From a virus, in the IMG/VR virus record IMGVR_UViG_3300000101_000017, positions 1 to 60,047 of that record: DNA of 60,047 nucleotides. One strand, given 5' to 3'. The position numbers and the translations under genes are program-made. The notes under the pieces are model-generated. The model saw only the letters and a list, made by a program, of their open reading frames with translations. It searched no databases and was not told the DNA's origin. Shown here one piece after another: positions 1,276-29,633 of the stretch. Every line of letters begins with the position of its first letter. Position 1 is the first letter of the stretch.

Positions 1276-1911
1276 ATGGAAATTTTAATAGCAATTCTAA
1301 TTGGTATATTATGGAGCCAAGTGATCAGTCATTGGGGCGCAAGTATATTATTACACAGATACTATTGTCATAAACAATTTAATATACCGGTATGGTTTGA
1401 GACTATTGGATTGGCAATGCTAATGATAGCATGTATTCGTACACCTATTGGTTGGATTGCAAGTCACAGAATGCATCATGCACACAGTGATACTGAACAT
1501 GATCCACATGCGGCCAAGCATGTAGGCTACTGGAAAGTGCTTCTAACTACGTGGGACATTCCTAAGATACCAATGAAGTATGCTAGAGACTTATATGATA
1601 ATCCAAGATTAGTATTTTGTCATAAGCATTGGTTAAAAATATTAGTAATAGTAAATGTAGTGAGCTTTTTAATTAGTCCTTTGTTTTGGACTGCATTTTG
1701 TGCAGTACCATTTGTATTTGCTAAAATAGGATTTGGACTACTTAATACAGTAGGACACAAAGTTGAAGGTGGAGCAGATGTTCCTTGGCTTAACTTTTTT
1801 ATTGCAGGTGAAGGCTATCATAGACAACACCATAACAACTTCCGTAAAGTAAGATTGCACAAATATGATACTGCTGGATGGATTGCTGAAAAGCTATTTG
1901 TTAAAAATTAA
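1276..1911 (+). CDS. Acyl-lipid/acyl-CoA desaturase (delta-9 type), membrane di-iron
   Basis: A 211-residue membrane desaturase. The histidine boxes of the stearoyl-CoA desaturase family are present in order: HRYYCH (residues 27-32), HRMHH (64-68), the NTVGH variant of the Asn/His motif (157-161) and HRQHH (182-186). Together they would bind two irons and introduce a double bond into a membrane acyl chain. Hydrophobic segments lie at about 2-18, 44-60 and 122-155. It is shorter than typical bacterial enzymes (about 270-320 residues) because loops and termini are trimmed, but no box is missing. The start has a good Shine-Dalgarno (GTAGGAG). It shares the plus strand with the fibre gene, and its last 18 bases overlap the convergent gene at 1894-2454. 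Lipid desaturases are known in cyanophages, where they are thought to remodel host membranes. Whether this one acts on free acyl-CoA, ACP or lipid-bound chains is not visible. Confidence 0.88.
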   Translation: MEILIAILIGILWSQVISHWGASILLHRYYCHKQFNIPVWFETIGLAMLMIACIRTPIGWIASHRMHHAHSDTEHDPHAAKHVGYWKVLLTTWDIPKIPMKYARDLYDNPRLVFCHKHWLKILVIVNVVSFLISPLFWTAFCAVPFVFAKIGFGLLNTVGHKVEGGADVPWLNFFIAGEGYHRQHHNNFRKVRLHKYDTAGWIAEKLFVKN

Positions 1912-2454
1912 TTCTTCAATATAATTTATATCACCTGTATAGATAATACCTTGTATATTATCTTTCCATAGTATTTCGACAGGTTTATCATGCACTGTCC
2001 ACGAGTCAAATACATCGCTACGTGCTTGTTTAATACGTCTAAAGAAGCCTGTTCCTTTGTCTCTACTCCAAAAGAATAACTTAAATTTGTCTTTTAGTTC
2101 GTTTAACATATACATGTCTGTATCAAAGTTATCTATTTTTGCATACAAATTGTCAGTATGTTTTGTACGATAATCATTAAACAAATAGTATCTACTAAAC
2201 AGTCTACAACAGTTTTTGCTCATATTTTGAGCTCCGCTTGCCATTACAGGACGGTTTACTTTGTTATCCCAAACAACACAGTACATTGCCATAGTTTCTA
2301 GTTTAAGCCATTTATCATAATTTTCTGCAAGCCTATCAGACTTACTTTCTTCTTTCATATATTTTATAGATTGTCTAGCATTAATAAAATCTAAACTAGG
2401 TAGATTTTTGTTCTCTTGCCCATCGATAATATACGGAATAATTTTTAAGTCCAT
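1894..2454 (-). CDS. Unknown protein, possible GNAT-like acyltransferase
   Basis: A 186-residue soluble protein, last gene of the minus-strand island. The central segment (about residues 60-105), VNRPVMASGAQNMSKNCCRL followed by FSRYYLFNDYR, has the layout of the strand and post-strand region of small GNAT-like proteins in marine phages (substrate contact, then 'R.YY..pe.R'). No clear acetyl-CoA P-loop (Q/R-x-x-G-x-G/A) is seen, so acyltransferase activity is only a suggestion. Its start overlaps the end of the upstream flavodoxin/methyltransferase gene by 10 bases, and its 3' end overlaps the convergent desaturase by 18 bases. The gene is clearly coding by its packing; its function is unproven. 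Confidence 0.6.
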   Translation of the reverse strand: MDLKIIPYIIDGQENKNLPSLDFINARQSIKYMKEESKSDRLAENYDKWLKLETMAMYCVVWDNKVNRPVMASGAQNMSKNCCRLFSRYYLFNDYRTKHTDNLYAKIDNFDTDMYMLNELKDKFKLFFWSRDKGTGFFRRIKQARSDVFDSWTVHDKPVEILWKDNIQGIIYTGDINYIEELIFNK

Positions 2455-3728
2455 ATGTGTGCTATCTTTCGTCTACCTGAAAATACATTTGCTTCTACTA
2501 CCCAATCTTTGTAATTGTAAGCGTCAGCATACATATGAAGGTCTTGTTCTATTGTATTCAGTTGCATATTAGGTAACCATTTATCAGTATCTTGTATCAA
2601 ACAAGGTTCTTGTATAATTGCATGACTAGCATTATATTCTTTAAATGTAACATTATTAAATAGTGTCATATGATTTTGGGGATCATATAAAAGAACTCCG
2701 CTCCATATTACACAGTCAACATCAAAGTCTACAGGATTTGAATCGTACATACTTGCACATCTGTATTCTATATTATTGTAACCTGCCCATATTTCTTTTG
2801 CATATTTTATAGGTTGCGGACTTGTGTCGTACCCCATATAGTTATAGTCTGTGTAGCCACGTTCTTGTAAGATATTATTTACTATACCTATTCTACAGCC
2901 TACGTCAACAATACCTTTAATATTATTGTCAATAATGATATCTGCTTGTTTTTCAAAAATACAACGTGCCTCTGGAGTATCTAAATAGTCCATGCTACGT
3001 AATTTGTAATCTTCTTTTAGTGGAACTTCGACTATATCTTTTGCATTATTATCAATACGAGGCCAAGGCATTCCGTTTACTCTGTATATAGGCTTCATTT
3101 CATAGCGCCAGGCTATATCCCATTCATTATACGATTTAAGCCACGTTAGACTGCTATATTCTTCGTTACAGCGTGTCTTTGTACTACTTGGCACATAAGT
3201 ACCCAGAAAACTCTCAACCGCACTGTAGACGCTTTTAACAGCGTTAATACCACCCGGAATAACCGTTTTCCAAGAATCATTGATTAAATGGCATTCTTTT
3301 ACCTTTGATCCTAATTTTTCTAAGAGTTGTGTAGTCATATCAAAGTGTCTGCCGCCGTTTGGAGCATACTTAGTTGGAGTAAATGTAACTACAAATATAG
3401 GCTTATCTGTAATAGCATAGTCTGTACCTAGATTTGCATTGAACTTTGCTTTAACTACTAACCAATCCATTGCATTTTTAAAACCGGCACAATAATGACT
3501 AGTTGCTTCACTTATAGCAAATATCAATACATCTGCATCATTTAACTTTTTAACAAACTGTTCTACACTATTAGGTACATTTCCATCGCTTTTATTACTA
3601 TTACAAATAGGCATATTAAAATCTAACATACCAAAGACTTCCATATCTAATTTCTCTTGTAATAATTTTAAGCCACGTGTCTGTAAACTATTGTCTGCAT
3701 AACTAAAACTTATTCCTACTACTTTCAT
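2445..3728 (-). CDS. Fusion: FMN-reductase-like flavodoxin fold + SAM-dependent methyltransferase
   Basis: A 427-residue, two-domain protein. Residues 1 to about 180 look like an NADPH-dependent FMN reductase: a first strand with phosphate-loop region (VVGISFSYADNSLQTRG, 3-19), a strand before the flavin loop (ADVLIFAISEATSHYCAGFK, 65-84) and the family-typical FKNAMDWL helix (83-90). Residues about 255-427 form a Rossmann methyltransferase: motif I VDVGCRIG (274-281), an acidic residue after strand 2 (D301), and a motif IV-like strand DCVIWSGVLLYDP (338-350). This pairing in one chain is unusual. Flavin reduction and methyl transfer could act successively on an island product. The ATG overlaps the stop of a 42-codon ORF upstream (ATGA), consistent with coupled translation. 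The substrate is unknown. Confidence 0.78.
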   Translation of the reverse strand: MKVVGISFSYADNSLQTRGLKLLQEKLDMEVFGMLDFNMPICNSNKSDGNVPNSVEQFVKKLNDADVLIFAISEATSHYCAGFKNAMDWLVVKAKFNANLGTDYAITDKPIFVVTFTPTKYAPNGGRHFDMTTQLLEKLGSKVKECHLINDSWKTVIPGGINAVKSVYSAVESFLGTYVPSSTKTRCNEEYSSLTWLKSYNEWDIAWRYEMKPIYRVNGMPWPRIDNNAKDIVEVPLKEDYKLRSMDYLDTPEARCIFEKQADIIIDNNIKGIVDVGCRIGIVNNILQERGYTDYNYMGYDTSPQPIKYAKEIWAGYNNIEYRCASMYDSNPVDFDVDCVIWSGVLLYDPQNHMTLFNNVTFKEYNASHAIIQEPCLIQDTDKWLPNMQLNTIEQDLHMYADAYNYKDWVVEANVFSGRRKIAHIWT

Positions 3729-3853
3729 ACTATATAACTCTCTAAATCTGGAGCCGATATTCCTTGTTTGTTTAATTGAAGCTTCCTAGCCCAAACACTA
3801 ACAGTATCTAAATTATAGTTTAGATCAAGTGCTTTACCCCATTTCAGTTGCAT
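3725..3853 (-). CDS. Small translationally coupled ORF, 42 aa, unknown
   Basis: This ORF fills what would otherwise be the only gap between two island genes. Its ATG (3851-3853) lies inside the last codons of the TauD-like gene at 3844, and its TGA (3725-3727) overlaps the ATG of the flavodoxin/methyltransferase gene. The same overlapping start-stop pattern joins most island genes. The product begins MQLKWGKALDLNYNLDTVSV and continues with a basic helical segment (WARKLQLNKQ). It contains no cysteine and shows no signal peptide. I recognise no family. It could be a small partner protein or the tail of a decayed gene. The Shine-Dalgarno is weak, so coupling would have to carry initiation. Confidence 0.5.
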   Translation of the reverse strand: MQLKWGKALDLNYNLDTVSVWARKLQLNKQGISAPDLESYIV

Positions 3854-4644
3854 ACTCTTTTGTAGTCGCAAGCTACTCTCCATAACAGCCTATCGCCCAT
3901 AACAGGGGTGCGTCTATGTAAAGTAGTAAACTGATCCATCAATAACAAATCGCCTTCTTGAAAAACATGATGTGTCTGATAACAGCTTTTAAATATAATA
4001 GGCTTTAGTCGTTCAATAATTTCTTTATGGTCTACTTGTTTTTTTCCTTCCCATGCTTTTATAATAAAGTGGTAAGGAAAGTAGAAATAGTCTTTGCCTG
4101 TATGCGGATGCTGTCCTACTAACGATCTAATACTACCTTTGTTCTTGCTCATAAATTCAAGCTCAGGATCATCTTCATCTAAATGGTACATTGTATCGTT
4201 TTGAAACTTTAATCTGATTGTAATACTACGCCAATAGTCTTGTTCGTCTTTAGACAAATCGTAAAAAGGATCACTTGTATTACAAATGCTTAATGTAGTA
4301 TTAGGATCACCTTTAATACAATATAATGCAATAAGTATTTTATCTATAAGGTGCCTACTATTTCCGTTTGAGTGCCAACCAAGTTCGCCTCCGCCAAACA
4401 TTCCTAGTTTATTCCCTTGCTCGTCCTTGCGATCAGAAACTAAAAATAGTTCCGGATGTTCCTTAGGATTCATAAACAATCCTGGTGCTTCACATTCACC
4501 TATACGTTTGAAAAATTCTACAATTTGTGCTTCAGTAAACTGTTGTTCGTGATGTATTGAAAGACCTTGTGTTTGTATTTTGTTTACAAGATCTCTTAGT
4601 TGTTCATCATTATAATCATAAACTTGAAATATCATCTGTACCAT
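3844..4644 (-). CDS. TauD/TfdA-like 2-oxoglutarate/Fe(II) dioxygenase with HxN in place of HxD
   Basis: A 266-residue protein with the double-stranded beta-helix layout of the TauD family: a proximal metal motif after a Gly-rich loop (GELGWHSNG, His91-Ser-Asn93), a product-side strand GDLLLMDQFTTLHRR with the distal His243, and Arg256 (LLWRVACDY) placed to bind 2-oxoglutarate. The usual carboxylate of HxD/E is replaced by Asn93. The related gene at 5348-6214 has the same change (HAN), so it is not a sequencing slip. Typical members hydroxylate small substrates such as taurine or amino acids. With HxN, altered metal geometry, halogenase-like chemistry or loss of activity are all possible. It overlaps the upstream oxygenase by 29 bases. 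Confidence 0.8.
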   Translation of the reverse strand: MVQMIFQVYDYNDEQLRDLVNKIQTQGLSIHHEQQFTEAQIVEFFKRIGECEAPGLFMNPKEHPELFLVSDRKDEQGNKLGMFGGGELGWHSNGNSRHLIDKILIALYCIKGDPNTTLSICNTSDPFYDLSKDEQDYWRSITIRLKFQNDTMYHLDEDDPELEFMSKNKGSIRSLVGQHPHTGKDYFYFPYHFIIKAWEGKKQVDHKEIIERLKPIIFKSCYQTHHVFQEGDLLLMDQFTTLHRRTPVMGDRLLWRVACDYKRVCN

Positions 4645-5227
4645 CCAAACTAAACATTAATGCAATTCTAGGTTTGTCACTCATATTAACAACTGCATGG
4701 GCATATCCTATATTAAGGAAATTTGCTGTTCCATCTGTTAAATTATATGCTTCTAACTTACCATCTCTTTTAAATAAGTTCACTACATTACTACCACCAT
4801 ACACAGGTACAATACATCTTACAGCATATGAAACATCATAATCAACGTGAAACGGTATTGTTTTTCCTGGTGCTAGTTTTGTAATTCTAATCCGACTTGC
4901 TGGTGATTTTAATTGTGTAACTATTTCCTCAAAGTAACTGCCAAGATAGTCTTCTGTAGGAACATTATAAAGGTGCTCTTCTCGGCGTCTTAGACGCTCC
5001 TTAATGCTGGCTGTATGCGGTAATACTTCACTAGGCGTAGTTAGGTTTATCTGTTCAAAGTTATCGTATACATCCTTAACTAAGTCTTCGTGGTTCATAC
5101 ACAGCCCAGGGTTTGCTGTACGTACATCAACAAATTTTCCTGCAAGTGTATCTGTAGCCTGTCTTAATTTTTGCAGATCTATATTCAACCCCAAATTAGC
5201 AATAGTTGGTAAGTTTTTCTTATTCAT
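4616..5227 (-). CDS. Aspartyl/asparaginyl beta-hydroxylase-like 2OG-Fe(II) oxygenase
   Basis: A 203-residue cupin-fold oxygenase. Metal and cosubstrate residues are in the expected order: HxD at His127-Val-Asp129 (IPFHVDYD), distal His177 in NIGYAHAVVN, and Arg187 (KPRIALMFSL) for 2-oxoglutarate. The Arg ten residues after the distal His is typical of the aspartyl/asparaginyl hydroxylase branch. It starts behind a strong TAGGAGATATTATG signal, and the same 13 bases (AGGAGATATTATG) occur again just upstream within a decayed oxygenase fragment. It is one of six oxygenase-like genes in the island. Substrate unknown. Confidence 0.78.
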   Translation of the reverse strand: MNKKNLPTIANLGLNIDLQKLRQATDTLAGKFVDVRTANPGLCMNHEDLVKDVYDNFEQINLTTPSEVLPHTASIKERLRRREEHLYNVPTEDYLGSYFEEIVTQLKSPASRIRITKLAPGKTIPFHVDYDVSYAVRCIVPVYGGSNVVNLFKRDGKLEAYNLTDGTANFLNIGYAHAVVNMSDKPRIALMFSLDGTDDISSL

Positions 5228-5347: not shown

Positions 5348-6214
5348 TCATTGAAAAATTACTGGCGTATAATTAGAAACTGCTTTTGAATAATCAAAAG
5401 CTGTTCGCCATAATTGCCTTTCTTTGTTTTTAATTGCTGATCGTCTATGACTAGTTGTCAACTGATCCATAAAAAGTAAATCACCTTTTCTAAAAACATG
5501 GTGGAACATATACTTAGAACGTGTAATTACTTTATATAAATTATCTTTGAATTCGTTAAAGTTCTCTATTTCTTTGCCATCTTTGTAATATGCTTTATAC
5601 AAATATATAAACATAGGATAAAAATATTCTCTACCACTTACAGGATGTAGTGCAACTAAAGGACGTCTATCTATTGTTTCATTATAGTGTTCTTGTCCTG
5701 TTCTAAATTTTTCTTCACCAGCTGTTTGATATGCTTTACTATAAACACCGTCATCTCTCCAAATTGGTTCTGCAACTCCTTTTGAATTATTTAGGTTAAT
5801 ATCTATACCACGGTAGTATTCTTTTTCTTGTTCTGACAATTCTTCAAATGCGTTGCATTGGTCAACTATAGATAAAACTGTATCAATACATTCTGTTTCA
5901 CAATATAATCCTACACATATTTCGTCAAAGTTATAACGCCCTGTGCCGTTAGCATGCCATTCTAATTCTGTAGGGCCAAACATACCTATTGCTTTTCCGT
6001 CTACTATTGCTCCGGATACAATACTAATTTGAGGACTGTCTTCGGGATTCATAAAATAATCTAATTCTTCTACTTTTCCCATTCTAGCACAGGCTTGGGC
6101 TAGTTCTTGTCTAGTTAATTTTTGATCGTGTAATACTGCTGATCCATTATTAACAATTTTATTAACTAACTGTTGTATTTCTTCCTCAGTATAATCTAAA
6201 ATATTCTTATCCAT
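5348..6214 (-). CDS. TauD/TfdA-like dioxygenase paralogue, HxN variant
   Basis: A paralogue of the protein at 3844-4644. I place the start at the ATG at 6212-6214 (288 residues) rather than the upstream ATG at 6250. It has GAGGA nearby, forms a TAATG overlap with the aminotransferase stop, and begins like its paralogue (MDKNILDYTEEE versus MIFQVYDYNDEQ). In this numbering the metal motif is His87-Ala-Asn89 (ELEWHANGTGRY), the distal His is 256 (TTSHRR) and the 2OG Arg is 270 (LWRTAFDY). Compared with the paralogue it carries an insertion of about 20 residues before the second half. Both proteins share a conserved FMNP(K/E)(E/D) segment and an LHP/QHP..GR/K(E/D)YF(Y) segment. Substrate unknown. 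Confidence 0.78.
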   Translation of the reverse strand: MDKNILDYTEEEIQQLVNKIVNNGSAVLHDQKLTRQELAQACARMGKVEELDYFMNPEDSPQISIVSGAIVDGKAIGMFGPTELEWHANGTGRYNFDEICVGLYCETECIDTVLSIVDQCNAFEELSEQEKEYYRGIDINLNNSKGVAEPIWRDDGVYSKAYQTAGEEKFRTGQEHYNETIDRRPLVALHPVSGREYFYPMFIYLYKAYYKDGKEIENFNEFKDNLYKVITRSKYMFHHVFRKGDLLFMDQLTTSHRRSAIKNKERQLWRTAFDYSKAVSNYTPVIFQ

Positions 6215-7116
6215 TAAATTGCTTCCTCTTGTATCAGGGGAGTAATACATATTCTTGCGTTATTATTCCATTTCATTCTTCGTCTTCTTGTATAGTAAGG
6301 ATCTTTAGTTGTAGCTAAGAAAAAACAATCTGACGCCACAAAATTGTATTGTTTACAAATTTTTAATTGTTGCTGTCTGTATCTATTCCACATATCATCG
6401 ACAGCAAATTTATCCATAATTAACGATAGTGTCTTAACACTATTGTAGTTCCAATTTTCAAACTCTTTTAATCTATGTAAAGTTGCATGTGGTTCTTTAG
6501 TATAAACTAATCCTAGTCGTTGTCCTACTAATCCAAAACCTTTTGAAAAACTAAAAAATACTTGTTCAGTATTTACAGGCACATTTATTCTTTGTATTTT
6601 TGTTGAGCTTACATATGTACAATCTAGTATTACTGGTGCTTGTATATTTCCTACATCAAAATAATTTCCATCAGCGGCACTAGGTACACTTACAAATAAA
6701 GGTTTGTTAGGATCAATATTTCCTTTTAGTGCTGACCGACCTGTTTGTTCATCCATGTGCTGTCCTGGTACATCACAAGTAACTTGTCCTGTTGTTCCTA
6801 TAATATCTGCATATTCGTATTCGCCGTAGCATAACTTTTGCCAAGGTCTTTTTTCCGTAAGTACCCAATGATGTATTGCATCCGTTGCTCCATTTACAAA
6901 ATAACAATGTTTAAAATCTTTAAGGTCAATTATATCTTTGACCCATTCTCTATGGAGTGCTTCTGCATGGTTTAAATCATTAGTAGCTTGTCCATTTCCT
7001 CTTTCATAATAGGTATCTGCTACTTTTAGATTAGTCAATAGATCTAACACGTCATTATGACATGGTACATCAATCCAAGGATTTTTTCGTAATTTATTTT
7101 TAATCACACTATCCAT
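6214..7116 (-). CDS. PLP-dependent aminotransferase, class I-like fold
   Basis: A 300-residue fold-type I PLP enzyme. Visible marks are an N-terminal phosphate-cup segment (FVNGATDAIHHW, 73-84), the Asp that contacts the pyridine nitrogen in VILDCTYV (Asp165), and the internal-aldimine lysine in SFSKGFGLVGQRLG (Lys192, with Arg200), which matches the class I aminotransferase signature S-x-S-K-x-x-G-x-x-G-x-R-x-G. It is about 80-100 residues shorter than usual, mainly at the C-terminal small domain, so either the small domain is minimal or the enzyme is a specialised subfamily. It is joined to its neighbours by 8-base (upstream) and TAATG (downstream) overlaps. A role in making or moving an amino group on the island's product is plausible; the amino donor is not visible. 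Confidence 0.75.
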   Translation of the reverse strand: MDSVIKNKLRKNPWIDVPCHNDVLDLLTNLKVADTYYERGNGQATNDLNHAEALHREWVKDIIDLKDFKHCYFVNGATDAIHHWVLTEKRPWQKLCYGEYEYADIIGTTGQVTCDVPGQHMDEQTGRSALKGNIDPNKPLFVSVPSAADGNYFDVGNIQAPVILDCTYVSSTKIQRINVPVNTEQVFFSFSKGFGLVGQRLGLVYTKEPHATLHRLKEFENWNYNSVKTLSLIMDKFAVDDMWNRYRQQQLKICKQYNFVASDCFFLATTKDPYYTRRRRMKWNNNARICITPLIQEEAI

Positions 7117-7768
7117 TCAATATTGTCTCTATTCTGTTTTTGAATTCATGAAAATCTATTTCTTTTGGTATATTATTCCAGCGTGTTACCCAAGCACACC
7201 TTGGTGCTTCTGTAACTACTACTCTATGCATAGTGTTGGTATCTATCAGTAAAGGTTTGTCTACAATAATATGTCCAATCTTTCTATTGCTTAAAAATGT
7301 TTCAAACTCTGGGGTTCCTTGACCCATTTCTTTTTGTGCATGAAATTCATGATAATAAGCATAACCGTGTGCATTTAGTTCTGGCAAGTATACTTCATCT
7401 TCTCGAGTTTCAAAATAATCTATTCTTGACGCACCAAACACAGGTATTACTAAATTATAATAATTAGGATGTTCTGTATCTAAATCTATATCAGTATGTG
7501 CAAAAACATCTTTCTCTGTACTGTCTGCTGTGTTAAATCCTGTAGACCTAAATTGATAATTAGGGTGAACTTTTCTATGTTCTGCAAGTATAGAATCAAA
7601 CTCTTGTTCATATCCTGTTGGCTTGCCTTCGCGATCTTCAAGTGAGTAACTTCTAAATGGTGTTTTGCCAAAAGTATTTGATGGTGCGTCACTTACTTTT
7701 TTGCATAAAGCTTCAAGTAAATTTACTCTATCACTTATGTTTACGTATTCAGCAATACCTTTGATCAT
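7109..7768 (-). CDS. 2OG-Fe(II) oxygenase-like protein
   Basis: A 219-residue cupin-like protein with the complete non-haem iron set: His91-Thr-Asp93 (FAHTDIDLD), distal His181 (LLIDTNTMHRVV) and a basic residue nine positions on (Arg190, EAPRCAWVTRW) for 2-oxoglutarate. The strand LVIPVFGASRIDYF between them fits the jelly-roll core. It starts one base into the stop of the peroxiredoxin gene (TAATG), so translation is probably coupled. It is not close in sequence to the TauD-like pair, so the island holds several distinct oxygenase types. Substrate unknown. Confidence 0.72.
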   Translation of the reverse strand: MIKGIAEYVNISDRVNLLEALCKKVSDAPSNTFGKTPFRSYSLEDREGKPTGYEQEFDSILAEHRKVHPNYQFRSTGFNTADSTEKDVFAHTDIDLDTEHPNYYNLVIPVFGASRIDYFETREDEVYLPELNAHGYAYYHEFHAQKEMGQGTPEFETFLSNRKIGHIIVDKPLLIDTNTMHRVVVTEAPRCAWVTRWNNIPKEIDFHEFKNRIETILNG

Positions 7769-8172
7769 TATAAAACGCCTTCTATAAAAGGATCGTCATA
7801 AAACTTAACAAATTTTCCGTCTTGTAACAACATAGCAAAACGCTGACATCTTACTCCCATAGTATTGCCAAAGTCTTTGTCTTTGCCTATGCTTTTACTA
7901 AAAACTGCTAACGGGTCTGCAACTGCATCTATATCTTTATGTCCGTGTAGTGTGTTCCATTCGTGCATGACGCTGGGATCATTTACGCCTATAAATACAA
8001 CCTTACAATCTAGTTTGTCTAAACTATTTGCAAAACCAGGTAGATGTCTTTTTGTGCAACCTGGTGTAAACGCTCCGGGTACACCACACATAATAACTTT
8101 ACCCATAGGTATTTCATAAGGTAGATAGTCGCCTTCTTTTAGTATGTATAAGCCTTTATTGTTAATTTCCAT
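7768..8172 (-). CDS. Peroxiredoxin (Prx5-like, AhpC/TSA superfamily)
   Basis: A 134-residue thioredoxin-fold protein. The segment GVPGAFTPGCTKRHLPGF matches the Prx5 active-site loop, with peroxidatic Cys39 and the conserved Thr36 three residues before it. Downstream core strands CKVVFIGVNDPSVMHEW and a DP..VF.K..G segment follow the family order. Other cysteines (Cys56 and one in GVRCQRF) could act in disulfide recycling, but the usual Prx5 resolving position is not evident. Length is slightly below the family norm (about 155). In an island full of iron enzymes, radical SAM proteins and flavoenzymes, it may remove peroxide made by uncoupled turnover. Confidence 0.85.
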   Translation of the reverse strand: MEINNKGLYILKEGDYLPYEIPMGKVIMCGVPGAFTPGCTKRHLPGFANSLDKLDCKVVFIGVNDPSVMHEWNTLHGHKDIDAVADPLAVFSKSIGKDKDFGNTMGVRCQRFAMLLQDGKFVKFYDDPFIEGVL

Positions 8173-8173
8173 G

Positions 8174-8860
8174 TTAATCCTTAGTTGTAAATATACTTAA
8201 TCCAATCTTACGCTCTATTCCTTTACTTTTGAAATTAGAACTACAATGTAATGCTAAACTATCAAAGCATAGTGCATCTCCAATTCGCCAATCTAGTATT
8301 TTATTAATACTCAATCCGTTAAGCCAATTAGACTGTAAGTGAGTTAGATAGCTAAGTTCAATATCATTTAATCCTGCTATTGACTGTTCTTCTACATCGT
8401 TATAGTTAGTTAAGAACTTATTATAATGTACAGGATAATCTGTCATATCACTGCCGTTAACAAACTTTACAGGGCCACCATAGTAATATTGATCAAAAAT
8501 AATTAACTTTACATCGTCACTATCTCCGTATATACGCAAAGGAATTGTAAATGCTTTATAACAATTAGGATAATCAAATTCGTCGTCATTGTGTATAATA
8601 TGTGGGTCTGTAACATCAAAGTAATGTATGTATCTAATATCAAACTCGCCCACTTGTTGCTTTAAAGAAGTAATTAAAGGTTCAAATACTTTTTCATTAG
8701 GATCTACTTTTAGTACTTTGGGTCCTGTATTTTTCTGTATTGCTTGTTCTTCATTAATTACATAGTATTTGTATAGACTATTAACGTCTACTATATCTCT
8801 TATTGAATAAGGATCGCTTTGTCCTTGTTTTATTTTTTGTATTTGTTCTAGTGTACGCAT
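8174..8860 (-). CDS. 2OG-Fe(II) oxygenase-like protein
   Basis: I choose the ATG at 8858-8860 (228 residues), which forms a TAATG overlap with the upstream stop. A longer reading to 8905 would need a TTG start inside the neighbouring gene. Metal ligands in this numbering are His90-Asn-Asp92 (PHIIHNDDEF) and distal His205 (GDALCFDSLALHCSS), with Arg217 (IERKIGLSIF) for 2-oxoglutarate. The strand pair AFTIPLRIYG and VKLIIFDQYYYGG makes up the jelly-roll core. It retains the normal HxD, unlike the TauD-like pair. One base separates it from the peroxiredoxin start. Its substrate is unknown. Confidence 0.72.
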   Translation of the reverse strand: MRTLEQIQKIKQGQSDPYSIRDIVDVNSLYKYYVINEEQAIQKNTGPKVLKVDPNEKVFEPLITSLKQQVGEFDIRYIHYFDVTDPHIIHNDDEFDYPNCYKAFTIPLRIYGDSDDVKLIIFDQYYYGGPVKFVNGSDMTDYPVHYNKFLTNYNDVEEQSIAGLNDIELSYLTHLQSNWLNGLSINKILDWRIGDALCFDSLALHCSSNFKSKGIERKIGLSIFTTKD

Positions 8861-22451: not shown

Positions 22452-23528
22452 CTACTTAAACTGCTCAGCAAACGGATCAAATTCTGCACCGCATTTCATT
22501 GCACATACTTTTAATTTGCCATCTCCGCAACTAGGTTTATTCCAACTTTCTTGTATATCATCGAATATACCTGTTTTAAAAACTTTATCTAATCCGTTAC
22601 GTGCATCTAGTGCATTCTTATCTGGAATAAAATCCCATATCTGTTCTACTTTAGGATCTTTATGCCACCATTTGTACATACGTCCAGCAGTCCAACAACA
22701 AGGTAATGCAAGCCCTTCTGCTGAAATATATAAACTGTTGTCTTTTTTAACTTTGCATATTACAGGTGCGGCATCATAATAAGCATCCATACTACCGTAC
22801 TTGTTTATGATTACTTCTTGCTTGCTAAGAGCTTTGTTTAAATATTTTTTATCTGGTTTTTTAAGCTCTGCTGAATCTTTACCTTTTCTATCTTTGGCTT
22901 GATGACTTTCTTTAGGTTTTGTTTTTGTGTCTATGAATCTTCCTGTTTTCTTTTTCATAAACTTTTCACATCCCCATTCGTTAGCAAGTGCTTCTGCTTC
23001 TTCCACTTGATGTTGGTTATGTTCAAAGATTAAAAAGTCCCAACGAGCTCTACCACCAGCTGAAATAAATGCTTTCATATTACGTTCTACGTTGTTCCAA
23101 ACAACACCTTGACGATATATATGGTTAGTATCCCGTAAACCATCAACGCTAAAAATAACAGCACCCATCCTACCAAGAGTTGTCGCCAAGTCGCGCCACC
23201 ATATTTCATTCTTTGCTCCTGCGTTTGTATTCATACTCAACCACATGTTAGGATTATGCTCTCTAAAGTATTTGAATATTTCTAATGTGTCTTTAGCAAC
23301 AATAGGATCTCCTAAGTTTCCGCACATGTACATTGTCTTTAACTGTTTAATAAAGTCTGGTGTAAAGATTTGTTTACAATCATCTAATTTAAGTTCGTCT
23401 AAGTTAATATGCGGATTGATACCTTCGCCATTCATGTTTCTATCACACATTGGGCAACTTGCCTGACAATTTTGTGTAACTTCTAAATGTATAGATCTTA
23501 TATCTTCATATCTATACATCTTTTGCAT
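22452..23528 (-). CDS. Radical SAM/SPASM protein
   Basis: A 358-residue protein, first of the nine radical SAM genes in transcription order. It has CxxxCxxC at Cys21, 25 and 28 (TQNCQASCPMC), YMCGNLGDPIVAKDT as the GGE substitute, VIFSVDGLRDTNHIYRQGVV, FLIFEHNQHQ, and a SPASM region with SLYISAEGLALPCCWTAGRM and VCAMKC. A basic insert (about 195-235) parallels that of 21406. The start could be Met1 (23528) or Met4 (23519), which overlaps the stop of the kinase-like gene and has GGA upstream. Reaction unknown. Confidence 0.84.
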   Translation of the reverse strand: MQKMYRYEDIRSIHLEVTQNCQASCPMCDRNMNGEGINPHINLDELKLDDCKQIFTPDFIKQLKTMYMCGNLGDPIVAKDTLEIFKYFREHNPNMWLSMNTNAGAKNEIWWRDLATTLGRMGAVIFSVDGLRDTNHIYRQGVVWNNVERNMKAFISAGGRARWDFLIFEHNQHQVEEAEALANEWGCEKFMKKKTGRFIDTKTKPKESHQAKDRKGKDSAELKKPDKKYLNKALSKQEVIINKYGSMDAYYDAAPVICKVKKDNSLYISAEGLALPCCWTAGRMYKWWHKDPKVEQIWDFIPDKNALDARNGLDKVFKTGIFDDIQESWNKPSCGDGKLKVCAMKCGAEFDPFAEQFK

Positions 23529-24027
23529 CCTGTATTTTTTTATTTACCAACATAAATATTTCAGTAAAAAACCCAGGTGTGCGCCAATGAACATAATCGT
23601 GACTTAAAGTAAAACTGTCTAGGTCTATTAATTTAATTTGATATTCATTTGTTATAACAAAATTCTTAAAGCGAGCATCTGTATATGTTAAATACGTACC
23701 TTTAGGTAAATGTTTTTTTGAATATTCTAGTGTGTCGGTATATACAGATATTCCTATATTTACTAGATCTAAACAAACATCTAAAGGAATATTCATAGAT
23801 GGGTCATTAATACAGTCTTGGGCTGTGTTGAGAACATCTAGTCTTTCCATAGAGTAACTAGTATTAGAATGCCAATCTAATAATTGGGTATAATAGGGCT
23901 TTCCGTTTGATAAGTTTTTTACATGATCATATACGTTTTTACTAAACTGTGAATTTATTAGCTGTTTCCTAACTGAATTTTTATTGTAAAAAATCGTTGA
24001 AGTATGATTTTTTTTAACTTTTTTCAT
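23512..24027 (-). CDS. Kinase-fold (APH/protein kinase-like) fragment or minimal phosphotransferase
   Basis: A 171-residue protein with the catalytic half of a kinase-like fold. YTDARFKNFVI (Asp117, Asn122) corresponds to the H-x-D-x-x-x-x-N catalytic loop, and KLIDLDSF (Asp135) to the metal-binding D-F-G/D-x-D strand. SMERLDVLN (59-67) could be the hinge. The usual N-lobe (glycine loop and Lys) is missing or reduced to about 50 residues, so it may be a minimal kinase, a pseudokinase or a partner subunit. It overlaps the 73-residue ORF upstream by four bases. Sugar or small-molecule kinases of this fold occur in glycan pathways, which would suit the neighbouring glycosyltransferases. Confidence 0.55.
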   Translation of the reverse strand: MKKVKKNHTSTIFYNKNSVRKQLINSQFSKNVYDHVKNLSNGKPYYTQLLDWHSNTSYSMERLDVLNTAQDCINDPSMNIPLDVCLDLVNIGISVYTDTLEYSKKHLPKGTYLTYTDARFKNFVITNEYQIKLIDLDSFTLSHDYVHWRTPGFFTEIFMLVNKKIQDAKDV

Positions 24028-24245
24028 TCTTCGCTATCCATAACTAATTTAATATCTTTTGCAGGTCCAACTTTGCTCGGTAAATCACCATACTGTTCTA
24101 CGTACCAATCTATTACTGCTTGATACCAATTTTGACTATTGTGATGTGCTTTTTTATTGAATTGGTATATGTTATCGTTGGTGGCTTGCATTGTTGATAA
24201 TGCTCTAGCACTTTCTTTTTGCATTTCTCTTAAACTAAGTTCCAT
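24024..24245 (-). CDS. Small unknown protein, 73 aa
   Basis: A 73-residue, mostly helical and polar protein. It starts in a TAATG overlap with the 975-residue gene and ends in a four-base overlap with the kinase-like gene, so it is very likely translated. It contains the segment NWYQAVIDWYVEQYGDLPSK. There is no cysteine or Gly-rich core peptide, so it is not an obvious RiPP precursor, although its small size next to nine radical SAM genes makes that worth testing. No family recognised. Confidence 0.6.
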   Translation of the reverse strand: MELSLREMQKESARALSTMQATNDNIYQFNKKAHHNSQNWYQAVIDWYVEQYGDLPSKVGPAKDIKLVMDSEE

Positions 24246-27172
24246 TATTTGTATCCAATCCGCATATACCTTGTATATTTGTCTAACGGCAATTCACCTT
24301 CATATAATACATTAGACATAGGTGTCATTTCAGCAAACTCCTGTGTGTTACTTACACAATTAACATGTTCTTCAATTTCAAAATAATTGTTGGTTTGTAA
24401 AATTAATAATTTTCCATCTGGAATTTTAGCATACCATTCTGCAAAGTTAGGTATGTGTTCACAACTTGTGTTAATAATAGTGTCGGGAGTATCTTTTAAA
24501 ACTTCAACATCACCTGTGCCTTTAACTGTTTCGTATGTTGTTTCTACATAATCAATATCCATTATGTCTTTTGTTTGTGCTTTAAATTTCCAACTATCTA
24601 GCAGTAATTCTTTGTTGAATGTTTCTGCAATTTTCCAAACATCTGGATCAATATCGAAACTTCTTACTTTTGTAAATTTAATACCATTCTCTACAAACAT
24701 AGGAACAATAGTCGCATACCAACCTGCACACAAATACACTGTGCCTATGTGTCTAATGTGTTTGTGTAATTCGGTTACTAGCCACTTCTTACTAAGCAGT
24801 TGTCCTCTACTAAAGCAGTCTATATCAAATTGTATTTGATTGTTGTAAAAACTTTTTAATGGTTTAGTAAATGCACTGTTTGTATATTTTTCAAGTAGTC
24901 TCCACAATGCAAAACGATCATTGTTTAGTAATTTAAATTCATCTGTTAGTCCTTGTTTCTCTAACAATCTTTTTGTACTATAGTAATTGCCTTCAATAAC
25001 TGCTTTACGTACATCATCATCAGTATCTAATATTCTAAATATACTATGCAAATTCTTTTCTACCATTGCTTTACGCAATTCTTCATGATCAGATCCTAGT
25101 AATCTAAAAAGTCCGTATAGGTTTTTATCAAGCATTGCCGAACGTAAATCTTCGTGTTCGTCACCTAACAATCTAAATAGACTATGTACGTTATCTTCAG
25201 TAACTACTTTTCTAACATCTTCATCTGCATCTATAATACGAAATAAACTGTGTAAGTTTTTCTCTAGTATTGCTTTACGCACATCTTCGTCAACATCGAC
25301 TATCCTAAATATACTGTGCAAGTTCTTTTCTAGTATTGCTTTGCGTAAATCTTCGTTCTTTGATAGTTTAAAAATACTGTGAATGTCTTGATTATTATAA
25401 AAGCGTCTTAGATTTTCTACATCGCCACCATATAAGGTTTCATATCTATCTAAAAGATCGACTATAAAATTATCAGGGTTTGCTTTGTCAGGTACATTAA
25501 AACTATTTGCTACTTGTTTTTGAATATCTCCAACTGAGCCTATAGTGTCTGTTTCAGTTTCTAGTTCAACTTCTTCAGTAAGACTAAACTGCTCGTACAA
25601 CCAATCAAAATCATTTATTAGCCGAAGATCAGAGCTGCTAGAAAGCCCATACTCCCTGCCAGCGATAGCACCTTTAATACAGTATTCGCCGAACTGTTTG
25701 TCTTTTCCCACTGTTGTCCAAATTCTAAGTCTTTCATTTGTTTCATCCTCTTTTTGTCTGTCAATAACTTTAGAACTTAATTTAGCACATTCTCTAAATG
25801 CACTTTTCCAAGTTTCAAAAGGTCCTGTATTAAATGCTGTAATATTACTTACAACTTTAATTGGTTTAAAATGCCTGCTTATGCTTGTAGTCATGTCAGG
25901 ACGTGATGTATCCATATCAAGTGTTGCTTGTCTTGGAAATAATTTGATGCCGCCATATCCATATTCTAAATTATTTATTGGGTTACGACTGCGCCATACT
26001 TTTACAAAGTTCATTTCTGATTCAGGTGCAACATAATCAAAATTAAAATCATCTACTATTGTAGCATCACCGTCTACAATCCATATAAGATCAGTTTTAC
26101 AGAGTTTTGCGGCTTCAATATGTGCTTGGTGTATTCCTTTAACTTTGTCTACACGCTTTGCTCTAGGGAATTTCTTTTTTAATTTATCATAATTTTGTTC
26201 AGCATTTGGTTCATTATATGTAATCATCACAATATCATAATTAGATTTTGTACTGTCCTTAAAGTACGAATGAGGTACCCTGTCTGGATTAGTATACATG
26301 TTTTTAAAGAACTTGCTTGCTTCTTTTTCTAACGGAGCATCTGTAATACCAAGACCAAGTTCGTTGTTAAGTTCATTGCCTAATTTTGTAATCTCATTAT
26401 GTAGATCGTCTTCATTAATTTTGCTGTATTTGTCTTTCCATAATTTGTTCAGATATTCAAAATCACGTACATTAACAAAGTCCCAGTCAGTACAATTAGT
26501 TTGATAACATCCTTCACGAGCGCCATATATTGCCCATAAGCCGTTTTCACTATCAGCGCCTGCACTACACCATATCTTTAATCTGTCTAAATTCTTTTTG
26601 TGGACACGATTTCTAAACTCTGTGTTAGTTAGTTTGTTTCCTTCAAACAAACTCATCTTTACACCTTCTCGAAATCCTGCTCTCCAGGCTTGCCAAGGAG
26701 TAGCATTATTATAAACGTAGCTGTAGACTTTGCTAATTTGTAAATAGGTTAGGCCCCAACAAAAGTCTATACCTGCTGCAATATTGTTTGGATCTGCGTT
26801 TTCATGCGTTTTCATACTTTTAACAAGTTCAGTTGGCCAGCACTTTATTCCGCCATTTCCGTATGTTAATCCGTTTACAACATTATAACCACTCCAGCTA
26901 ACAACGCATTTTTCTAAATCTATGTCGTCTCTAAAATTGATAGTTTCATTAATAAACTCTGGATCAACAATGTTGTCTCCATCTACAGTAATAAAACGTT
27001 CTGTTTCTGCTATGTTTGCACACGCTTTATGAGAAGCATCTGATCCTTCTACTCCGTGTATACGTTTTGCCCAGGGTATTTTTGTAAGTATGTCAGCGTA
27101 ATTTTTATCGGCATTAGGCTCGTCATAACTCAAATAAACTATGTCACAGTCACTTACTTTAAATAATGCCAT
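24245..27172 (-). CDS. Multidomain protein: two GT-A-like domains, 22-residue repeats, methyltransferase-like domain
   Basis: A 975-residue protein. Residues about 8-240 and 311-530 are two copies of a glycosyltransferase-A-like domain. Each begins DIVYLSYDEPNA or DIVMITYNEPNA, has a D-G-D motif (64-66 and 367-369) where the DxD metal site is expected, and shares a GNGGIK/GYGGIK segment. Residues 588-740 are seven tandem 22-23-residue repeats (pattern LRKAILEKNLHSIFRIVDVD). Residues about 795-975 resemble a SAM methyltransferase (TVYLCAGWYATI, then FDIDPDV, then NTSCEHI). The start has GGAGA upstream and overlaps the upstream stop (TAATG). Together the parts suggest a sugar-transfer and methyl-transfer machine with a repeat spacer. 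The acceptor is unknown. Confidence 0.7.
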   Translation of the reverse strand: MALFKVSDCDIVYLSYDEPNADKNYADILTKIPWAKRIHGVEGSDASHKACANIAETERFITVDGDNIVDPEFINETINFRDDIDLEKCVVSWSGYNVVNGLTYGNGGIKCWPTELVKSMKTHENADPNNIAAGIDFCWGLTYLQISKVYSYVYNNATPWQAWRAGFREGVKMSLFEGNKLTNTEFRNRVHKKNLDRLKIWCSAGADSENGLWAIYGAREGCYQTNCTDWDFVNVRDFEYLNKLWKDKYSKINEDDLHNEITKLGNELNNELGLGITDAPLEKEASKFFKNMYTNPDRVPHSYFKDSTKSNYDIVMITYNEPNAEQNYDKLKKKFPRAKRVDKVKGIHQAHIEAAKLCKTDLIWIVDGDATIVDDFNFDYVAPESEMNFVKVWRSRNPINNLEYGYGGIKLFPRQATLDMDTSRPDMTTSISRHFKPIKVVSNITAFNTGPFETWKSAFRECAKLSSKVIDRQKEDETNERLRIWTTVGKDKQFGEYCIKGAIAGREYGLSSSSDLRLINDFDWLYEQFSLTEEVELETETDTIGSVGDIQKQVANSFNVPDKANPDNFIVDLLDRYETLYGGDVENLRRFYNNQDIHSIFKLSKNEDLRKAILEKNLHSIFRIVDVDEDVRKAILEKNLHSLFRIIDADEDVRKVVTEDNVHSLFRLLGDEHEDLRSAMLDKNLYGLFRLLGSDHEELRKAMVEKNLHSIFRILDTDDDVRKAVIEGNYYSTKRLLEKQGLTDEFKLLNNDRFALWRLLEKYTNSAFTKPLKSFYNNQIQFDIDCFSRGQLLSKKWLVTELHKHIRHIGTVYLCAGWYATIVPMFVENGIKFTKVRSFDIDPDVWKIAETFNKELLLDSWKFKAQTKDIMDIDYVETTYETVKGTGDVEVLKDTPDTIINTSCEHIPNFAEWYAKIPDGKLLILQTNNYFEIEEHVNCVSNTQEFAEMTPMSNVLYEGELPLDKYTRYMRIGYK
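24947..25411 (-). repeat. Seven tandem coding repeats of about 66-69 bp
   Basis: These lie in the 975-residue protein. Successive units begin at residues 588, 609, 631, 653, 676, 699 and 721, with the core (L/V)RKA(I/V)(L)EKNLHS(I/L)FR(I/L)(L/V)D. Units 2, 3 and 6 are nearly identical in protein and close in DNA, while outer units are degraded, which points to recent internal duplication within an older array. The pattern predicts two short helices per unit, like a small alpha-solenoid. Confidence 0.75.
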
Positions 27173-27702
27173 TAAAAGTTCTCCACATGTATATATTTGT
27201 CGTCAGCCCTTGCACATAGTATACTAACGTTTCCTTTAGTTTCTAAGTTTGCTTCTATTACTCCAGATTCGTTTAATACAGATAAGTCTAACTTAAATGA
27301 GTCTAACAAATAATTTGTATCTCTGTCTTTAGTAACAAATATAGTTTTAAGTCGTGGTTGAGTTTGAATGTAATAAATTAATTCGTCATTGTTCACATCA
27401 ATCTCTAACGCCCACTTATCTTTATATTGTATAATATTTACTTTATCTTTGGCTCGTTGACCCTTAGGTATGGCATAAGAACTTAGTACTGTATCTAATT
27501 TTATTTCGTCTTCATGCTTAATGAGATATTGTTTTGATCCTAGTGCATTTATATAATAGTCTAGCAAGTTTTTTTGATGTGTGTTGAATGCCTTAAAATC
27601 TTCTTGGGATATTTCAATATAAGGATTTGTGTTTTTAGGATTTATTTCATTTGTACAAGATAAACAATTTCCTGTTTCTTTTTCATATATCATATAGTAC
27701 AT
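27172..27702 (-). CDS. Unknown protein, 176 aa
   Basis: A 176-residue soluble protein with no motif I recognise. It begins MYYMIYEKETGNCLSCTNEI, a CxxC near residue 13 followed by mixed helix and strand, and ends in a beta-rich segment (GNVSILCARADDKYIHVENF). Met4 (27693) is an alternative start. It overlaps the glycosyltransferase gene by 13 bases and the 975-residue gene by one base, so it belongs to the same translated unit. Confidence 0.6.
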   Translation of the reverse strand: MYYMIYEKETGNCLSCTNEINPKNTNPYIEISQEDFKAFNTHQKNLLDYYINALGSKQYLIKHEDEIKLDTVLSSYAIPKGQRAKDKVNIIQYKDKWALEIDVNNDELIYYIQTQPRLKTIFVTKDRDTNYLLDSFKLDLSVLNESGVIEANLETKGNVSILCARADDKYIHVENF

Positions 27703-28499
27703 TGTTCTAGCCTCTCTATAATTGTACTTGTTAAAAAGTTTTTCTCAGTATAATGAAATACATCTTTTTGTAAAAAATTATCAAGGTATAATCTACAATC
27801 ATTTGTAAATTCTATGTCTAATGCTGTTGTCCATCTTGTGTGATGATTGTTCCAATTTTGTATACGAGGTTTCATATGTGTAAATGTAATAGGGATATTG
27901 CTTATACTAACATCTAAAATTTTACATGCAAATGCTGTGCATATATCATAACTTACCCATTTTTGTTTAGTAGTACCACAGAGCATATTGTTATATTCAT
28001 CAAAGTTTTTCATTATATCTTCTACAAGCATAAAAAACTTTTTTACAAAGTTATTCTTCTTAAAATAATAAACACCACTGTATATGTTAGGTAGATTGTT
28101 TTCAATAAATGTTTTCCTGTAATATTGATCGTTGATTTTTTCGTTACGATATGTTTTTACATCTGTAACAAAAAATAAATCTTCTGTTGATAACATTCCC
28201 CACCAATGATTAATATCATTTAGAACTAACATATCTACGTCCATAACAATAGTTTCGTCATAGGGTGTATGTTCAAATACTTTATATCTGTTTTGTATTT
28301 TCCAATCTTTATCTTTTGCTAAGTCGTCTTTTAATATAACAGTATGATCATAGCAATTTTTAAAGTCATCTGTATCTGTAATAAGACATACGTTTGTATC
28401 TTTGCTTTGCAACTTTATACTCAAAGCAAGTGCATATGCTTGATCTAGATAATTTGACTCTTTGTTGTTTTGTGCAACTAATACTATACCTCTAGACAT
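27690..28499 (-). CDS. GT-A-fold glycosyltransferase-like protein
   Basis: A 269-residue protein. It has an N-terminal nucleotide-sugar-binding strand GIVLVAQNN, helices with an (A)LALSIKLQ segment, then YDETIVMDVDMLVL with the D-x-D metal motif at Asp87 and Asp89, and a later YSGVYYFKK segment as in GT8-like enzymes (strand after the DxD with 'N.Gv..f'). It is paralogous to the gene at 28492-29310 and overlaps it by eight bases. It probably transfers a sugar from a nucleotide donor; donor and acceptor are unknown. No membrane segment. Confidence 0.7.
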   Translation of the reverse strand: MSRGIVLVAQNNKESNYLDQAYALALSIKLQSKDTNVCLITDTDDFKNCYDHTVILKDDLAKDKDWKIQNRYKVFEHTPYDETIVMDVDMLVLNDINHWWGMLSTEDLFFVTDVKTYRNEKINDQYYRKTFIENNLPNIYSGVYYFKKNNFVKKFFMLVEDIMKNFDEYNNMLCGTTKQKWVSYDICTAFACKILDVSISNIPITFTHMKPRIQNWNNHHTRWTTALDIEFTNDCRLYLDNFLQKDVFHYTEKNFLTSTIIERLEQCTI

Positions 28500-29310
28500 T
28501 TGTGCACCTTCCTAAACTATATTTGTTCATTATATGTACGTCGGTATCTTTTATTCTTGCAGGATAATATTCGCTGTCTTTTTCTAATAAGAATAACAGT
28601 CCTGTGTCTTTCATATCTATTAATATATCTTTATCTAACGTTTGCCATAAATTACCTGGTATAGAAATATCTTCTAATGGACTAAACCCATTCATTATAT
28701 GTAAAGCAATGCTAAATGCATAATCATTTCTAAATTTTGTTTCTACAATTTTATATTTCAATCTATAAAAATCATAGTTTTCTTGAATGTGTAAAATTAA
28801 ATCAAATAATATTTTGTTTTGTGTAGATTTAGTAAAGTAAAATACTGTTGCCCAATACATAGCAACACCTGTATCAGTTATTCTTTTCATACTTGTAACT
28901 CTATTATGCTTAACGTCAACCCAGTCTTTGTTAATTAATAAATTTTTTCCAGAATCAAAACATTTAAGCAAATTATTACTGTTAATAATAAAGTCTGTAT
29001 CTATAACAATAGTTTGCTCATATGGTGATAAGTCATAACACATTGCCCTACCAGCGTTATTCCAAGGTAGTTTCTTTTGTGCATACAAGCCATCTCTAAA
29101 TGTTTTATTATTATTACTTTTTGGCATTTCAACTTCAATAATATTATCTATTTCATCTTTGATAATACTTTTTGCATAGTCAACAGAGCTTGTTACAAGA
29201 CTAACTTGTAAGCCCAAAAATTGTTTTATTCTTGAAGCACAAAAAACTGCTTGTTTGATGTAGTCAATATCTGAATTGTTATGTGCAAAAAGTAGTATAC
29301 CTTTGCTCAT
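28492..29310 (-). CDS. GT-A-fold glycosyltransferase-like protein, paralogue
   Basis: A 272-residue paralogue of 27690-28499. It has the same N-terminal layout (GILLFAHNNSDIDYIKQAV), the same DxD strand (YEQTIVIDTDFIINSN, Asp104 and Asp106) and a similar middle (MYWATVFYFTKS). It begins in an ATGA overlap with the first island gene. The tandem pair may add two sugars in succession or act on one acceptor with different donors. Confidence in the fold is fair; the specificity is not visible. Confidence 0.7.
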   Translation of the reverse strand: MSKGILLFAHNNSDIDYIKQAVFCASRIKQFLGLQVSLVTSSVDYAKSIIKDEIDNIIEVEMPKSNNNKTFRDGLYAQKKLPWNNAGRAMCYDLSPYEQTIVIDTDFIINSNNLLKCFDSGKNLLINKDWVDVKHNRVTSMKRITDTGVAMYWATVFYFTKSTQNKILFDLILHIQENYDFYRLKYKIVETKFRNDYAFSIALHIMNGFSPLEDISIPGNLWQTLDKDILIDMKDTGLLFLLEKDSEYYPARIKDTDVHIMNKYSLGRCTNV

Positions 29311-29633
29311 ACACTAACAAACCCTTCAACTGTTCTATTTTTTGCTAATTTTTTATATTCTGTATTATACTTGTTAATTGCTTCGTTATAGACTGCAAGA
29401 ATTTTTTCGTAAAATGTATCATCTACTTCAATTGGAGTACAGTTATCATCATCTATAACATTTGGGTTTGAAACTTTTACAAATGCTATTAGTTCTTTAG
29501 TTACTGTAAATTTGCCGCCATTACAGTAAAATATTCTGTCAGAATGAAACTTTTGCATTAATATATTTTTTTGGTTATTTAGGGTGACCATTAGATTGCT
29601 GTGTTCTAATGCACGTTCTAGTCTTTTATCCAT
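29307..29633 (-). CDS. Small unknown protein, first gene after the island promoter
   Basis: A 108-residue protein with charged helices at both ends (MDKRLERALEHSN and NKYNTEYKKLAKNR) around a beta segment FYCNGGKFTVTKELIAFVKV. The general layout is familiar from small conserved proteins of marine T4-like phages, but I know no function. It is the first gene behind the sigma-70-like promoter at 29659-29687, with TGAGGAAA as Shine-Dalgarno. It shares no homology with the enzymes downstream and may be a regulator or an unrelated early gene. Confidence 0.65.
   Translation of the reverse strand: MDKRLERALEHSNLMVTLNNQKNILMQKFHSDRIFYCNGGKFTVTKELIAFVKVSNPNVIDDDNCTPIEVDDTFYEKILAVYNEAINKYNTEYKKLAKNRTVEGFVSV

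Follow-up and report, generated by a model that had tools for sequence, protein, structure and literature searches.

Phage gene islands rich in radical S-adenosylmethionine (SAM) enzymes are already known as such (PMC2853527, PMC7029224). Campylobacter phage CP220 encodes 11 radical SAM proteins, and 11–12 are given for CP220/CPt10 (PMC2853527). In pelagimyophages, the published 'host recognition' islands (HRC) are hypervariable enzyme and fibre islands in the structural region, between VrlC and the neck gene gp14, and this genomic position was read by the authors as serving O-chain modification against coinfection (PMC7029224). For the sugar/amino-acid cluster of jumbo cyanophage S-SSM6a, capsule decoration or production of a metabolite was proposed (PMC7824862). 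Here, an island of 31 minus-strand open reading frames (ORFs) at positions 1894–29633 of virus record IMGVR_UViG_3300000101_000017 was analysed. The whole stretch of 60,047 bases, which is part of the phage genome, is referred to as the window, and the ORFs are named g01–g31 in coordinate order, the reading direction being g31 to g01. It is a real, functional-looking biosynthetic enzyme island and, as judged by comparison with related loci, a composite of at least two transferable modules, A (g02–g11) and B (g12–g27), which are separate cassettes joined here. Module B contains a conserved core that has a counterpart on Bdellovibrionota chromosomes.

The island resembles the HRC, including that of the cultured phage Mosig EXVC030M (PMC7029224), in being an enzyme island beside fibre/baseplate genes with glycosyltransferase and radical SAM cassettes, and most module A genes are 41–75% identical to those of Mosig (g06, 32%). 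It differs in that the window phage has a jumbo-type baseplate, and the core g12+g18+g24+g27 was not detected in Mosig beyond weak similarity. CP220 and CPt10 also have an interchangeable radical SAM module with nucleotide-diphospho-sugar transferase-like neighbours, but identity is only 22–26%, for single genes, and an amidinotransferase takes the place of the 2-oxoglutarate (2OG) oxygenase set. S-SSM6a is likewise a jumbo phage with 2OG enzymes, a methylase and carbamoyltransferases, whereas the review PMC7824862 mentions no radical SAM enzyme. No relative of g03 or g07 was found in cyanophage records. A DNA-level search of cultured phages gave no match, and g26 and the core gave none or weak matches against them. 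Nothing relevant on radical SAM together with Bdellovibrio and phage was found in the open-access literature, where the conserved core, its Bdellovibrionota counterpart and the two-module structure appear to be undescribed.

Scanning bacterial and archaeal genomes for the g15 family gave full-length homologues in metagenome-assembled genomes (MAGs) of Bdellovibrionota, among them locus L097 in a 936-kb contig and L094 in a 350-kb contig, adjoining apparent ribosomal-protein genes. Beside these matches stand g12 (56–68% identity), g18 (57–63%), g24, g23, and g27-like glycosyltransferase and methyltransferase genes. In a sample of 291 Bdellovibrionota genomes, g12 was present in 17 and g18 in 15, each of the latter also with g12 (Fisher p about 3e-23, without correction for kinship), and g24 and glycosyltransferase or methyltransferase homologues lie alongside in most of the g12-bearing loci. 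The core common to phages and bacteria consists of radical SAM proteins g12, g18 and g24 and the functions of g27, a GT-A/methyltransferase protein that is its sole non-radical-SAM part. These chromosomal clusters differ from the window in lacking g26, in often having core genes on mixed strands and in often being flanked by genes resembling glycosyltransferase family 2 (GT2), which are the commonest unassigned neighbours (7 and 6 of 17 loci). One locus additionally holds a UDP-glucose dehydrogenase and a PMT-type transferase, and fibre genes were not recognised next to the cassettes in bacteria. g12 was not found in 398 genomes from the phylum to which an alphaproteobacterial MAG belongs, which shows rarity only. 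In the trees, phage and bacterial sequences are split by a supported branch (100/100 for g12; 98 for g18, quick tree), as expected for a single old phage–bacteria exchange; both trees have midpoint roots, which give no direction for the transfer.

A pair of membrane-protein genes (about 160 and 320 aa) was also observed beside radical SAM genes (L097:7244-8693, L094:2397-3831, L092:11155-12488). The L097 pair gave no Pfam match, and we take the pair, as an impression only, to recall HTTM/vitamin K carboxylase-like proteins. In addition, L095, a contig from a 'Methylophilaceae' MAG, encodes a g15 homologue among virus-like genes and probably stems from a phage whose contig was binned with the bacterium.

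The modules were separated by their distribution. A search with g07 gave 14 contigs with a kept block, g06-g05-FMN reductase-g08-g07-g03-methyltransferase-g04, and g12 was found in one of them, L214, a near-identical relative of the window; two further contigs had other radical SAM families. At least three module A families lay within 10 kb in 6 of 80 g12 loci (some flanks truncated). Since module A mostly occurs without the core and the core mostly without full module A, they are considered separate cassettes. The module A block is also found in Mosig, a cultured SAR11 phage (g04 75%, g07 72%, g03 67%, g08 55%; g06 as above), where g02 corresponds to two genes, at 41% and 47%, and the annotation includes a nitroreductase and a desaturase, the latter placed inside module A. 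The preliminary description had seen the island as one pathway, which does not agree with modules that mostly occur apart. Homologues are thus separated between the modules but not within B, where g12, g18 and g24 stand together even on bacterial chromosomes.

In phages, the g12 family was found in at least 514 IMG/VR stretches, and an IMG/VR search with g23 gave 152 relatives, 80 of which were used. The order g27-g26-g24-g23-(g22, g21, g19)-g18-g17-g16-g15-g12 recurs, with insertions and losses. Mean identity to the window in 21 loci was 71% for core proteins and 40% for g31–g33 of the fibre region. The baseplate wedge, a fairer standard of comparison, is 55–69% identical in the main clade and 35–41% in L013, L053, L054, L065 and L088, in which g18 and g12 remain at about 66–86% (by locus; g12 not in every one). 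Since core identity is high where wedge identity is low, the core is, on these comparisons, strongly constrained and also passed between phages. Radical SAM matches numbered 4–20 per record in all 24 related records, and Mosig and CP220 carry such genes too, so enzyme richness is not exceptional in a phage as had been supposed. The large phage contigs L053, L054 and L088 have 19–20 radical SAM matches apiece. Relatives carry further families resembling UDP-sugar dehydrogenases, short-chain dehydrogenases/reductases (SDR) and carbamoyltransferases.

Among the best 15 of 63 matching records, the 1171-aa baseplate wedge shows about 36% identity to its counterparts in the jumbo phages Atu_ph07, SCTP-2, Phosso and PA5oct; related records reach 342 kb and 382 kb, and a gp23-type capsid protein is present in 8 of 24. 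Therefore, the window is probably a fragment of a jumbo myophage of the wider T4 supergroup; "T4-like marine phage", as first proposed, was imprecise, the baseplate being, among the matches listed, nearest to jumbo phages.

The borders of the island and the signals near them are:
1276–1911, plus strand: fatty-acid desaturase gene (PF00487, 37.6 bits), convergent with the island
1894–2454, minus strand: g01, last island gene, no assigned function
29307–29633, minus strand: g31, first island gene, small protein with no assigned function (homologues in 23 loci)
29659–29687, minus strand: sigma-70-type promoter TTGACA-17-TATAAT heading the island (12/12, ends 25 nt before g31)
30673–30680, minus strand: TATAAATA, a T4-type late box preceding fibre gene g32 and marking where the island gives way to late virion genes

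Between the desaturase and the fibre/baseplate genes, genes overlap or abut at 24 of the 30 junctions, and just two intervals, of 115 and 120 nt, are longer than 50 nt, in agreement with the nearly gapless series of about 30 genes described before. The island is flanked by fibre and baseplate genes and by large virion genes; the window does not contain gp14, and a single virion-protein ORF of 4999 codons occupies 36879–51878 (phrog_10938). The ratio of nonsynonymous to synonymous substitution rates (dN/dS) is mostly 0.04–0.24 for island genes, where measurable; therefore, the genes are not decaying, an objection that had been anticipated.

The 12/12 sigma-70 site is the only one in the window (0.2 expected). 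Of 23 related loci, 15 have a site with 11–12/12 immediately before g31 (10 of 17 once identical g31 starts are collapsed); among 2000 random windows, 29 (1.5%) have one. Reading as one operon, previously deduced from the overlaps, is thus strengthened by a perfect promoter that recurs at the same place in relatives. The late box TATAAATA occurs without mismatch at 9 of 23 g32 homologues and at none of the 22 g31 homologues, the background rate being 0.28%; late-box matches are not enriched window-wide. Given the sigma-70 site at g31 and the late box at g32, transcription of the island is probably separate from that of the virion genes and probably precedes it.

Module B contains nine radical SAM and two QueC-like proteins, all on the minus strand:
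10310–11422, minus strand: g12, radical SAM, most constant core member
11453–12112, minus strand: g13, PP-loop ATPase, QueC-like (PF06508, 24.4 bits, cut-off 22)
12891–14060, minus strand: g15, radical SAM with additional C-terminal Cys clusters (cellular homologues 38–44%)
14050–15012, minus strand: g16, PP-loop ATPase, QueC-like (PHROG only; invariant SGGADS and C-terminal Cys motif)
15002–16342, minus strand: g17, N-terminal-twitch radical SAM (NF033640, 201.7 bits)
16335–17753, minus strand: g18, N-terminal-twitch radical SAM, core (NF033640, 421.8 bits; Bdellovibrionota chromosomal homologues 57–63%)
17765–18799, minus strand: g19, radical SAM/SPASM (PF04055/Pfam profile)
19341–20297, minus strand: g21, radical SAM/SPASM (PF04055/Pfam profile)
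20294–21409, minus strand: g22, N-terminal-twitch radical SAM (NF033640, 189.3 bits)
21406–22434, minus strand: g23, radical SAM (PF04055)
22452–23528, minus strand: g24, radical SAM with C-terminal Cys motifs, core (cellular homologues 44–47%)

The number of nine radical SAM genes was reproduced, since PF04055 matched in nine places and CxxxCxxC is present in every protein; the cut-off was passed by seven in the genome search and by eight in the protein scan, with g24 slightly below. g17, g18 and g22 are members of N_Twi_rSAM (NF033640, cut-off 170 bits), a sequence subfamily whose name carries no function. No radical SAM protein of the island reached the cut-off of the other curated NCBIfam models shown, and the viperin-type model NF038283 (cut-off 180 bits) scored 38.9 for g12 and 41.1 for g15. 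The best PDB match was the sactipeptide maturase SkfB for g18 (E 0.0015) and ChlB for g15 (4e-5). g19 is 96% identical to its homologue in L009, with a synonymous divergence (dS) of 0.07 where neighbouring genes exceed 1; by this measure it is a recent single-gene exchange. As for the two QueC-like ATPases, g13 was confirmed by Pfam and g16 by PHROG only plus its conserved motifs, giving no match when run alone in a viral protein scan. A bona fide QueC function for g13 was rejected (TIGR00364, 17.1 bits against a cut-off of 150.3), and no QueD, QueE or FolE was recognised among the island genes (60 kb of genome covered).

The remaining genes of module B and those that follow it towards g31 are:
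12109–12891, minus strand: g14, weakly GDSL/SGNH-like (14.4 bits, below cut-off 23.6)
18799–19344, minus strand: g20, no assigned function (no Pfam match; homologue in one locus)
23512–24027, minus strand: g25, no assigned function (no Pfam match)
24024–24245, minus strand: g26, 73-aa helical protein, phage-only (66 loci, 77% mean column identity)
24245–27172, minus strand: g27, two GT-A-like domains, helical repeat and class I methyltransferase
27690–29310, minus strand: g30 and g29, paired proteins, possible glycosyltransferases, unproven (homologues in 24–27 loci)

In the AlphaFold2 model of g27 (predicted local distance difference test, pLDDT, 77.8; predicted template modelling score, pTM, 0.43), Foldseek found the tandem GT-A half to resemble chondroitin polymerase K4CP, a two-domain enzyme (E 1.4e-5), and the C-terminal part to resemble methyltransferases, and VIA-align matched residues 779–975 to the methyltransferase fold (Z about 16). 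DxD-type motifs are present in 121 of 132 glycosyltransferase ORFs. Between the two parts, about six near-identical helical repeats of ~22 aa (NLHSIFRI) were observed, and their number may differ among relatives. The g26 model (pLDDT 89.5) had no significant match among PDB folds; the protein is absent from all cellular and several phage loci and has no variable core region. Of three supposed glycosyltransferase-like proteins, g27 was upheld, with two such domains, and g29 and g30 gave no profile match. The SGNH hydrolase assignment of g14 is weak only, and no profile supports the alginate-lyase-like fold suggested for g20 or the kinase fold suggested for g25.

Module A comprises:
2445–3728, minus strand: g02, FMN reductase fused to methyltransferase (FMN_red and methyltransferase Pfam)
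3844–4644, minus strand: g03, TauD-like with HxN (60.3 bits; 67% to Mosig)
4616–5227, minus strand: g04, Asp/Asn hydroxylase-like (Asp_Arg_Hydrox, 25.2 bits, cut-off 22.6; 75% to Mosig)
5348–6250, minus strand: g05, TauD-like with HxN (78.1 bits)
6214–7116, minus strand: g06, short class I aminotransferase-like (PF00155, 14.8 bits, below cut-off 19.7)
7109–7768, minus strand: g07, 2OG-oxygenase-like (HTD, H181 and R190 conserved; 72% to Mosig)
7768–8172, minus strand: g08, peroxiredoxin-like (PF08534, Redoxin, 48.3 bits)
8174–9609, minus strand: g10 and g09, 2OG-oxygenase-like (conserved HxD and distal His)
9600–10310, minus strand: g11, probable nitroreductase (PF00881, 12.8 bits, below cut-off 23.5)

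The flavodoxin-fold/methyltransferase fusion (g02) and the peroxiredoxin (g08) named in the preliminary description were both recovered by profile; the aminotransferase (g06) and nitroreductase (g11) fell below their cut-offs. g11 is 22% identical to the Mosig protein annotated as nitroreductase, and family f53, related to g06, is also found near the cellular core. Compared with its homologues, g02 is a fusion of two genes that stand apart in relatives (Mosig, L090, L216–L226). The six 2OG-oxygenase-like proteins comprise three with Pfam matches (g03, g04, g05) and three without (g07, g09, g10), which were assigned by motif. The 2OG/Fe(II) facial triad (HxD/E and distal His) is present in g04, g07, g09 and g10. 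In TauD-like g03 and g05, and in all aligned homologues, HxN takes the place of the HxD/E iron ligand, within a WHxNG motif; an altered metal site or chemistry is possible.

The best explanation, which we hold tentatively and at somewhat below an even chance, is an early-expressed pathway that builds or tailors a glycan and remodels the surface of the infected cell. The island would be a bank of enzyme cassettes that a jumbo myophage keeps next to its fibre/baseplate genes, at the hypervariable 'host recognition' site; its own sigma-70 promoter would drive it as a single unit, probably ahead of the virion genes. Module B would build and tailor a glycan or glycoconjugate: the GT-A domains of g27 would transfer sugars, possibly helped by g29 and g30, and its methyltransferase would cap or methylate them, while radical SAM proteins g12, g18 and g24, with g15, g17, g19, g21–g23 and the QueC-like ATPases, may act on unactivated carbons and introduce groups of the amide or amidine type. 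A building block may be made or decorated by module A, with its aminotransferase, oxygenases, FMN reductase and peroxiredoxin. The product on the infected-cell surface would block rival phages or alter adsorption, and superinfection exclusion is suggested by analogy with the reading of the pelagimyophage region. Of the glycan, peptide or small-molecule products first envisaged, a glycan is the best supported, because of the GT-A/methyltransferase protein g27 and the GT2, UDP-sugar dehydrogenase, SDR and carbamoyltransferase-like companions; a ribosomally synthesized and post-translationally modified peptide (RiPP) is the least, there being no conserved small ORF. Several points weigh against the glycan pathway. 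Early expression is deduced from a consensus site, no sugar-activating nucleotidyltransferase was found in the island, and no equivalog cut-off was reached by its radical SAM proteins, including those of the sugar-acting DesII and BlsE. The GT-A likeness of g27 rests on 11% identity and the low-pTM model, VIA-align listed only its methyltransferase part, and g29 and g30 have no Pfam or family match. Modules A and B need not belong to one pathway, and proteins are frequent substrates of the 2OG and SPASM/twitch classes.

This last point leads to the main rival, considered unlikely, in which the enzymes modify a virion protein (fibres, the 4999-aa structural protein) or a peptide like g26 in the manner of proteusin-like RiPPs. 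Peptides are common substrates of 2OG oxygenases and of SPASM/twitch radical SAM enzymes, the best PDB matches of g18 and g15 are SkfB and ChlB, the island adjoins fibre genes and the very conserved g26 adjoins the core. Yet the bacterial cassettes have no recognised fibre genes beside them, and g26 is missing from all cellular loci and several phage loci and lacks a variable core region. A RiPP cluster with a conserved precursor was rejected, since none of 104 candidate small ORFs on 17 bacterial contigs is shared. A diffusible secondary metabolite against competitors, as proposed for the S-SSM6a cluster, is less probable still: the aminotransferase, oxygenases, methyltransferase and the relatives' carbamoyltransferase-like genes resemble that proposal (PMC7824862) and module A is rich in tailoring enzymes, but no exporter, synthetase or resistance gene was recognised among the 31 genes, and the common neighbours in bacteria are glycosyltransferases.

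Equally improbable is a reading without a shared pathway, in which independent auxiliary genes are gathered at a hypervariable locus and single cassettes are continually exchanged. The separate occurrence of modules A and B, the recent swap of g19 and a radical SAM content ranging from 4 to 20 fit this reading, but g12, g18 and g24 lie near one another in jumbo phages and on chromosomes alike, the co-occurrence of g12 and g18 is strong (uncorrected for kinship), and the phage and bacterial sequences of g12, and likewise of g18, split cleanly. QueC-like proteins, radical SAM enzymes and glycosyltransferases also occur in known phage DNA-modification systems. Hypermodification of phage DNA or of a nucleotide is nevertheless very improbable here, given that no QueD, FolE or base-hydroxymethylating enzyme was recognised among the island genes, that the QueC score is far below its cut-off, and that the core adjoins glycosyltransferases on bacterial chromosomes. 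For the glycan pathway itself, a further step is conceivable but doubtful, namely that the chemistry of g12, g18, g24 and g27 is new and that together they make up a radical-SAM/glycosyltransferase pathway not described before. It would have passed a single time between large aquatic phages and a lineage akin to Bdellovibrionota, and both would use it to alter the Gram-negative cell surface presented by themselves or by their hosts.

Since CP220, phages with at least 10 radical SAM genes have been on record, no function having been assigned, and hundreds of virus contigs bear the cassette. The Bdellovibrionota counterpart narrows the nine enzymes to a few core proteins amenable to expression and assay (three radical SAM proteins and the GT-A/methyltransferase) and hints at glycan chemistry. 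If true, radical enzymes would offer a new way to surface sugars, and the strategy would be widespread among phages.

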